64,000 nucleotides of DNA from assembly GCF_000019805.1 (NCBI RefSeq), contig NC_010525.1, forward strand, positions 992,001 to 1,056,000, in the 5' to 3' direction. Source of the DNA: Pyrobaculum neutrophilum V24Sta. GTDB lineage: Archaea > Thermoproteota > Thermoprotei > Thermoproteales > Thermoproteaceae. The notes beneath the pieces were generated by a model, which was given only the letters and a program-made list of their open reading frames with translations, was not told the origin of the DNA and ran no database searches. Numbering within the stretch: the first letter of the stretch is position 1; each line of letters begins with the position of its first letter. Shown piece after piece: positions 51,314 through 53,944 of the stretch. The position numbers were made by a program, and so were the translations under genes.

Positions 51314-53567
51314 GGAGTACGTAGTTGCGGCCCTCCTCCACGACGTTGGGAAGCTCATAAGGAGGGCGAAGCTGTGCCGTGGGGAGCCGGCTAGGCGCCA
51401 CGTGGAGGAGAGCGCGGATTTCGTAGACGTCGTCGCGCCGGCGCTTAAGGCCGCTGGGGTTGATCCGCAGGCGGTGAGGGAGCTGGTTCTGAGGCACCAC
51501 GAGGGGGGCTGGGGGGTGGGGCCCTACGACAGAGCCGCGGCTCTGGAGAGGGCGCCGGGCGACGAGGAGTCGGGCCAGGGCCTGGCCATGCCGGGGCGGC
51601 GCGAGCACGAGATACCTCTGAGGTTGCCCACGGGGGTGTACGTCCCGCCGTGTCCAACGCCGCAGAGCCTCAGCGAGAGGCTCATCCCGTCTACGGAGCC
51701 GCCGAGCCCGGAGGAGGTGTGTAGGTGCTACCGGAGGGCCTACGAGGAGCTGATGAGGCTGGCGGCGAAGGCGGCTCAGAGGAGGATGGGCTTCAAGGAG
51801 CTCGTGGAGACGCTGGTAAACGTGCTGAAGGCGACGGCGTCTTTTGTTCCAGCGGCTGTATACGGCGTGAGGGAGCCAGACACATCCCTCTACGCCCACT
51901 CCCTCCTGGCCGCCGCCCTCGCCTCTACGGGGGGCGAGTTCTACCTGGTGTCTATAGACGTGGGGAGGATCCAGGAGTACATCTCGAGGGCCGGCGCCAC
52001 CAAGGCCGCCATGGCCATCCTCAGGGGGCGCTCCCTCCGGATAAACGCCCTCCAGAGGGCCGCCGTAAGGTGGCTCATAGACAGGGTGGAGACGGCAACA
52101 TACGCCAACGTCCTCCTGGACACCGGCGGGGAGGCCCTCCTCCTCCTGCCCAAGTTCGACCTGGCGCTCCTCGACCAGCTGGAGAGTAGAGTGCTCCGGG
52201 AGACGGAGGGGGCCCTCGCCCTGTATGCCGCCGCGGCTGGGCCCTACAGGCTGGAGGACGTGGCAAGGTTCAAAGACCTCATGAGGGAGCTCTCCCAGAG
52301 GGTCACAGAGCGTAAGTTCATCTACCGCGACTACGGAGCCCCGGCGGGGCCCGCCGCGAAGTGCCAGTTCTGCGGCCGGCTGTCCGCCAAGGTGACGCCG
52401 GAGAGGCTGAAAAGCGGGGAGGTCGTCGACCTTTGCCACCTCTGTAGAGACGAGCTACACATCGGCCGGGCCGCCCGCAACCTGAAATACATCGCCTTTC
52501 TCCCCAGGGGGGCACTGCCGCCCGGCTTGGCGGGGGCCGAGCGCGGGGATGACACGGCTGTGGTGAACATTCTGGACTACGCCGTGGTCTTCAGCGGCCA
52601 GATGTCCAAGATGCCCCCCGCCTCCCACGCCGTCTACGCCACCAACAGGAGGGATTTCATCCTCGACGCCGACGGGCCGGCGTACGGCATGTGGTTCACC
52701 AACACCCACATCTACTACAGGGAGGGCGAGGACTCCTCCCTCGACGCGGCCGGGAGGTACGCCGCCTTCGTCAAGATGGACGCCAACAGTATGGGGAGGC
52801 TGAAGGAGGCCGCCTCGCGGACCCCCTCGGCGCTGATCACCTTCTCCCTCGCCGTCTCCACCGCCTACGAGCTCTACCCAGCCCTCCTTGCGGACGAGAG
52901 GTACCGCGAGGTGCCCATCTTTGTGATCTACGCGGGCGGCGACGATGCGGTGCTGGCCGGCAACCTCGAGGCGCTTCGGTACGCCGCCAGCGTGGCGACC
53001 TACGCCGAGAAGTGGGGCTTCAAGACGGCGATTGGCGCCAAGATAGACAAGCCTCAGTACCCCATCTACTTCGCCTTCGCAGACACCGAGGAAAGGCTAG
53101 AGAGGGCGAAGGGGATAGACAGGGGGCGGAGCATCGCCGTGTTGATAGCGGAGCCCGTCACGATATACGAAGAGGCCGCGGAGCTCGAGAATGACTTGGA
53201 AAAAATCCCCAGATACAGGGAGGACGAGGAGACACGGCGCATGGGGGCCTTCGAGCGGAAGGTGTACGAGAGGCTCTTCGCCGCGTACGCCACCGCTGCC
53301 GTGGACGGCAAAGTGGACAAGAGGGTGGTCAAGAGGGCGCTGGCGAAGATCGCCGTGGAGCTGGTCTACATGCTCAAGAGGCGCGAGGGGGATAAGGAGA
53401 CCACGGGGGTGCTTGAGGAGGTGGCTGGGCCTCTGTTCGCCAGCGCGGAGGGGGTTGGGTCCTTCTTCGCCGATCTAATGGCGGGGAAAGGGCGTTTGGA
53501 CGAGCTGAGGCGCGCTGTGCTCCGGCTGTATCTCCACCACATCGCGCTGGCGTGGGCTCCCGAATGA
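51300..53567 (+). CDS. cas10: Cas10 (Csm1), type III-A large subunit
   Basis: 755 residues. The HD nuclease motif is LLHDVGKL (H14, D15); a palm-like segment reads [16 protein letters not shown]; a zinc ribbon has CQFC and CHLC; and the second palm holds the cyclase GGDD at 546-549 ([14 protein letters not shown]). Both the ssDNase and the cyclic oligoadenylate synthase sites look intact. It would therefore fuel Csx1, Csa3 and possibly the CARF-like protein at 41513. The next gene overlaps its stop. Confidence 0.95.
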
Positions 53568-53944
53568 GGGGGGAGATAGCCGTCGTCCTCCCCCGCCGGT
53601 GCGGGGCCGGGTTCACGACGCCGCGGTACAGCTACGTCTTCGAGGAGGATCCCCTGGTAGGCCTGGTGAGGTATGCCCACTGCCCGCCCATCGGGCTACA
53701 CGTGCCGGGCGTGGCCCAGTACAGGCTGAGGGGGCTGGGCGTCGCCGAGGCGATCCCTGTGGCGGGCGACGGCCCGCTGGTGATAATCGGCGCGCCTCAC
53801 GACGCCCTCTCCCTCAGAAGCGCCGTCGTGGTTAGGGCAGTTCGCGGGAGGATAGAGGCGGTGGGGCCGGCGGATAAGATCGACCTAGAGAGGTTCCGGA
53901 GGAGGATACCTGTGAACCTCAGGCTCGGCCGGAGGTATCTCTAG
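53564..53944 (+). CDS. Unknown gene coupled to cas10
   Basis: 126 residues. The ATG overlaps the cas10 TGA as ATGA, as within the csm operon, so it is very likely part of it. It looks like a small beta-rich protein: [58 protein letters not shown]. It does not match a Csm subunit I know. It could be an extra complex component or a regulator of second-messenger signalling. It ends 94 nt from the convergent csx1. Confidence 0.65.

Follow-up and report, generated by a model that had tools for sequence, protein, structure and literature searches.

The stretch of DNA analysed here, referred to as the window, comprises 64,000 bases (992001-1056000 of the 1,769,823-base genome) of Pyrobaculum neutrophilum V24Sta, and contains a type III-A CRISPR-Cas operon in which cas10 is followed, as the last gene, by a small reading frame, ORF126. 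The gene chain csm2-csm3-csm4-csm5-cas10, with all of the Csm subunits present, had been proposed in a first-pass annotation of the DNA and is confirmed here by profile matches. The features of the locus, in window coordinates, are as follows:

43988..46486, + strand: CRISPR array 10 (1035988-1038486 in Table A1 of PMC3396285, converted to window coordinates)
46668..47102, - strand: Cys-rich ORF of 144 residues, following the ATPase gene; PADLOC PDLC01064, "cas_RFas, cluster 17 associated"
47106..48155, - strand: AAA/ABC ATPase with weak AriA/OLD-like matches; divergent from csm2
48076..48585, + strand: csm2 (PDLC01547, E 7e-61); the true start is probably further in, near 48160
48582..49505, + strand: csm3 (PDLC01017, E 3e-58), ATG start taken; marker of this Csm clade
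49502..50320, + strand: csm4 (TIGR01903, over cut-off), ATG start taken
50324..51313, + strand: csm5 (PDLC01275, E 1e-10)
51300..53567, + strand: cas10/csm1 (TIGR02578, over cut-off), ATG start taken, frame open from 51270
53564..53944, + strand: ORF126, 126 codons and a TAG stop; PADLOC PDLC01065, "cas_RFas, cluster 17 associated"
54038..55459, - strand: csx1-type CARF-HEPN effector by profile matches; convergent with ORF126

The Cas10 protein of the window carries both the HD and the GGDD motifs. The segment assigned to the CRISPR array (43988-46486) is occupied by ORFs made of a repeated motif. The relevant section of PMC3396285 describes a cluster of nurA, a csm6-annotated gene and herA, and the ORFs at 40098-43940, which adjoin the array, are probably this cluster. 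The ATPase gene and its Cys-rich companion (46668-48155, - strand) are kept as a pair beside the Csm genes in most relatives, and also in G307, a genome of another family; the weak AriA/OLD-like matches suggest that the pair may be a second defence module. Beyond the effector gene, two adjoining ORFs (55721-56816, + strand) resemble, by eye, a single transposon protein of the TnpB type that a frameshift has split. These are followed at 57057-58669 (+ strand) by a Panacea-domain (SocA-like) gene and, after 5 bases, by an ORF of 277 residues without matches, which together form a possible toxin-antitoxin or defence pair.

The ORF126 gene and its family

The ATG codon of ORF126 lies within an ATGA that is shared with the TGA stop of cas10 (53565-53567), and the letters of the window thus bear out the 126-residue frame and the overlap described previously. 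A GTG at 53552 is also open for this frame (130 residues) and is kept in the nearest relative, so that the start taken is provisional. By numbering, ORF126 would correspond to Tneu_1153, between Tneu_1152 (cas10) and Tneu_1154 (csx1); the table in PMC3396285 omits it and places csx1 on the other strand.

The gene had been described as unknown, which holds for its function and not for its family, since the latter is already catalogued in PADLOC as PDLC01065. This profile matches the ORF126 of the window with E 7.7e-51 over positions 2-119 of 119, it matches all 11 members of the family described below, and it is their sole PADLOC match; judged by these profile matches, the ORF126 family is PDLC01065. 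The PDLC01065 entry consists of a label, and no function for the family was found in PADLOC or in the literature searched. The PADLOC server paper cites Shah et al. 2019 in connection with its lists of proteins, and it cautions that a functional link need not exist for genes labelled "cas_associated". The label probably derives from Shah et al. 2019. The literature search, made outside Shah et al. 2019, returned no paper describing ORF126; the one match to a relative's locus tag (these tags were guessed), TTX_1248 in PMC3189178, concerns other genes in the matching text.

No further relatives emerged from the profile and structure libraries. None of the 11 members matches Pfam at E<=5, the window protein has no match in NCBIfam, no PDB sequence matches it at E<=10, and PHROG gave no credible match. 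CARF and HEPN profiles were likewise without a match among Pfam, NCBIfam and PADLOC. AlphaFold2 models were of too low confidence to use, with a pLDDT of 33.4 from three alignment rows and of 46.8 when the Vulcanisaeta row was placed first. Foldseek comparison of a low-confidence model with the PDB gave no matches at E<=0.001; UreE (E 0.045), among the best Foldseek rows, lies above this threshold and is not counted as evidence.

Distribution among Thermoproteales and co-occurrence with a Csm3 clade

A search with the single protein gave matches in 16 of the 45 genomes of the order at E<=0.1, nine of them clear; 11 of the 20 match rows (E 0.001-0.08, several of them short or containing stops) were dropped before counting. 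A profile built from the nine clear members did not recover these weak rows at E<=0.01 and added two new genomes, G020 (Vulcanisaeta sp. JCM 14467) and G032; in the latter, the single-protein row lies at a different place from the gene counted. Of the 398 genomes of the phylum that were searched with this profile, 11 have an ortholog. These 11 belong to the same order and form a small sample. Every ortholog is single-copy and lies inside a Csm locus (11/11 genomes), and the earlier proposal of an additional component of the type III-A locus is upheld, in that ORF126 is kept across the Csm loci of its relatives.

The presence of ORF126 coincides closely with one clade of Csm3, defined by a Csm3 profile (A2) at E<1e-100. 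This clade occurs in 12 of the 45 genomes of the order, and weaker Csm3 matches occur in two more, G030 (probably P. islandicum) and G025. ORF126 is found in 11 of the 12; in the twelfth, G039, represented by a 9,357-base Thermoproteus contig, the contig ends inside csm3. The other 33 genomes of the order lack ORF126. Fisher's test for the co-occurrence gave p 1.2e-9 for the 45 genomes and 3e-7 for the 25 genomes that are at least 90% complete, both values being inflated by kinship.

Outside this clade, no relative was found in viral contigs (by protein patterns or by Csm3 alignment), in phages or in plasmids. The more distant III-A loci of G030, G025, G154, G307 and G209 also contain no detectable homolog, so that ORF126 is not a general requirement of III-A complexes.

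Placement of the gene

The first-pass annotation had proposed a search for orthologs after cas10 in related genomes, and would have taken their absence beside cas10 in every relative as a refutation. This refutation does not hold: in 8 of the 11 loci, the window included, ORF126 touches or overlaps the 3' end of cas10. Five genes follow cas10 directly on the same strand (G000, G041, G035, G027 and G031, the last being P. oguniense TE7). Four of these five show a stop-start overlap, namely ATGA in G000 and G041 and TAGTG in G035 and G027, and in G031 the overlap measures 26 bases on the start taken. Three genes are convergent, their tails overlapping with that of cas10 (G015, G020 and G032). 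The remaining three occupy other places at the edge of the operon, either before csm2 (G026) or beyond the ATPase pair (G018 and G013). In six of the 11 loci, ORF126 is thus not co-oriented downstream of cas10.

Variable and constant features around ORF126

The gene content around ORF126 varies considerably. A relative of the ATPase is present in 9 of the 11 loci, being absent from G026 and G032, and is broken in G041, G031 and G020; the Cys-rich partner is present in eight and was not found in G027, G026 and G032. The HD motif of Cas10 is lost in four loci (G015, G018, G013 and G020). The GGDD motif, by contrast, is kept in all 11, and a CARF-HEPN gene is present in each of the 10 loci in which this could be checked, the contig of G020 ending about 1.9 kb beyond ORF126. 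Since the HD motif, the ATPase and its partner vary while GGDD is constant, ORF126 follows the Csm/Cas10 core and its cyclase, and neither the HD nuclease nor the ATPase pair.

These data bear on the view that ORF126, the ATPase and the Cys-rich partner form a three-gene accessory module that merely neighbours the Csm genes. The partner and ORF126 carry the same PADLOC label (PDLC01064 and PDLC01065), the three genes stand one after another on the same strand in G035, and in G307 a different small ORF holds the place of ORF126 before the ATPase pair. Against this, ORF126 is intact in every locus in which the ATPase is absent or broken or the partner is missing. The ATPase is a conserved neighbour, yet dispensable to ORF126, and we consider such a module decidedly improbable.

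Sequence evolution and conserved residues

The frame is conserved in 11 genomes, more than chance would produce, and identity among the 11 proteins falls to about 25%. In comparison with the nearest relative, G041, dN/dS ranges from 0.24 (YN00) to 0.47 (NG86), and the differences are distributed over the three codon positions as 9/10/12; this pair alone shows modest purifying selection, weaker than that on csm3. The distances among the ORF126 proteins track those of Csm3 (Mantel r 0.778, a value reached in 2 of 5000 permutations), and ORF126 evolves 1.75 times faster. Joint vertical descent with Csm3, in which all six f1 rows form a clade, was not rejected (p-AU 0.119). A horizontal replacement in G032 had been considered, as the first tree placed this row among f3 (fork support 82/89); it was not upheld by the same AU test.

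Despite the divergence, V8, C13, C40, H46, G49, D107 and R110 are invariant over the 11 rows, and R56 is nearly so. The conserved Cys, His, Asp and Arg residues presumably have a role, and they could form the catalytic or metal site of an independent effector or toxin-like enzyme. The pair C13-C40 could equally represent a structural disulfide, and no effector or nuclease profile in Pfam, NCBIfam or PADLOC matches ORF126. Moreover, type III loci usually exchange their effectors, whereas ORF126 is constant. An independent effector therefore appears very improbable.

Possible relation to cyclic-oligoadenylate signalling

The first-pass annotation had further suggested that ORF126 tunes cyclic-oligoadenylate signalling, with a ring-nuclease assay as a check. 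As a ring nuclease it finds no support in sequence similarity: Pfam, the PADLOC ring-nuclease profiles and the Crn1/Crn2 profiles show none, and Csx15, Csx16 and Csx20 are covered as far as the libraries hold them. A link of ORF126 to the cyclase is nevertheless possible, because GGDD is kept in all 11 loci. ORF126 could be a ring nuclease of new fold, or a cA4 sponge similar to Csx15, that would lower the activation of Csx1 after infection. The constancy of GGDD together with the dispensability of HD is in line with such a role, as is the CARF-HEPN effector present in all 10 checkable loci; in G013, ORF126 directly follows the CARF-HEPN gene, and in G015 and G018 it adjoins CARF genes. Like Csx15, Crn1-Crn3, Csx16 and Csx20, ORF126 is a small protein of type III loci with an active Cas10 and Csx1. 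It differs from these proteins in that no sequence relation to them was found, in its coexistence with Crn1 or Crn2, and in not being optional.

Known ring-nuclease families occur in the same genomes. Matches to PF09651 (Cas_APE2256), which we take to be the Crn1 family, were found in 10 of the 11 genomes with ORF126 and in two of the three compared genomes without it. They lie inside the ORF126 locus itself in G026, G015, G032 and G013 (4/11), the G013 copy having a stop in the matched stretch. A gene of PF08960, presumably the Crn2/AcrIII-1 family, is located directly downstream of the chromosomal cas10 in G013 (L063:7248-7598), the place of ORF126 in Pyrobaculum, and a second PF08960 copy lies elsewhere in this genome (L062). 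A search for Csx3 (PF09620) found it neither in 14 genomes nor in the controls, and so does not prove that it is absent.

In hhalign comparisons, ORF126 gave only noise-level scores with the Crn1 and Crn2 proteins of these loci. According to the relevant sections of Hoikkala et al. 2025 (PMC12409355), ring nucleases are present in 39% of cA4 loci and are thus optional, unlike ORF126, and more than one is present in only 10 of 242 ring-nuclease loci, whereas Crn1 shares the locus with ORF126 in four cases. There is a precedent for coexistence of a small cA4 protein with Crn1, as the portions of PMC12409355 and PMC13148439 that deal with Csx15 report its co-occurrence with Crn1 (7 of 18 loci) and describe it as partly a sponge. 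Overall, the presence of Crn1 and Crn2 in the same loci and the noise-level alignments render a cA4-handling role of ORF126 less likely, and we regard it as rather unlikely.

Small ORFs at more distant III-A loci

In the five distant III-A loci, small ORFs without detectable similarity to ORF126 hold similar places. An ORF of 138 residues in G154 overlaps cas10 by four bases, as in the window; a small ORF of G025 begins four bases past cas10; and its relative in G307 precedes an ATPase and a PDLC01064-like ORF, in the same order as ORF126 in G035. These three ORFs constitute a second family (L087:9634-10050, L060:2798-3079 and L086:8969-9394), which has no Pfam or PADLOC match. A third family, from G030 and G209 (L059:12961-13401 and L065:320-844; 29% identical to each other), is divergent from csm2, and its Pfam and PADLOC matches do not rise above chance.

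By eye, these ORFs share with ORF126 a CxD-helix-beta stretch and a GLRL near the C-terminus. Homology with ORF126 was not upheld, as in each of the three modes the hhalign scores against the alignments A11, A13 and A14 lay inside the range given by 60 column-shuffled controls; comparison of the second with the third family gave a probability of 8% (P 0.004). Matches of the second-family profile in G157, G080, G052 and G014 (E 5e-5 to 2e-3) were put down to chance on inspection: three are ABC ATPases, of which two were read and the third gave a similar alignment, and one resembles a methyltransferase. Archaeal III-A complexes might carry an unrecognised extra subunit at the Cas10 end that diverges so fast as to look like separate orphan families, a notion that we consider unlikely. 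Because the alignments with ORF126 stay within the shuffled controls, the ORFs are treated as positional counterparts only: the shared position is observed, and common descent is unsupported.

A putative component of the Csm/Cas10 effector

We propose that ORF126 may be an obligate, lineage-specific component of the type III-A (Csm) effector of Thermoproteales, which would bind the Cas10 end and either hold the complex together or set the output of Cas10, and to which we assign a probability of roughly 0.42. The gene occurs once per locus and is obligate in one Csm clade, GGDD is intact throughout, and ORF126 is kept irrespective of the HD motif, the ATPase and the ring nucleases; a dedicated effector component fits this pattern better than an optional enzyme does. 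The gene order counts against such a component, as three of the 11 genes lie away from cas10 and six are not co-oriented downstream of it, which is unusual for a stoichiometric subunit. The fast divergence, the unusable fold predictions and the lack of a match to the profiles of Csx19 or another subunit also speak against a subunit.

In the proposed mechanism, the small protein, presumably made in P. neutrophilum from the cas10 transcript, would bind the Cas10 end of the Csm complex, perhaps through contact with Cas10 or Csm4. Once bound, it would either stabilise the complex or adjust the output of Cas10, and it may be needed for assembly or for output; its role would be comparable in the former case to the structural role of Csx19 in type III-D.

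Additional subunits of this kind have parallels in other type III systems. Cmr7 is an extra subunit of the Cmr complexes of Sulfolobales; compared by description, it is crenarchaeal, restricted to one lineage and added to a type III complex, as ORF126 would be, and it differs in belonging to another subtype. Apart from PDLC01065, ORF126 has no match in the NCBIfam, PADLOC and PDB-sequence libraries used, which we assume to hold Csx19 profiles, and a relation to Csx19 was thus not detected. The likeness to Csx19 of type III-D lies in small size, in restriction to one effector lineage and in being encoded with cas10, and the low-confidence model of ORF126 is beta-rich. In the structural account given in PMC11026444, Csx19 of III-Dv is a beta-rich subunit located between Cas5 and Cas10 and is needed for assembly.

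ORF126 accompanies this version of the operon in every genome in which both could be checked, and it is therefore more likely to be an additional functional part of the complex than an optional accessory. If it is indeed a sixth obligate Csm part, the five-protein bacterial models of III-A assembly and Cas10 control would be incomplete for hyperthermophilic archaea, and reconstitutions limited to csm2-csm5 and cas10 may fail or yield mis-regulated complexes. If ORF126 handles cA4 instead, it would be a signal-quenching protein of a new class, present alongside the known ring nucleases.
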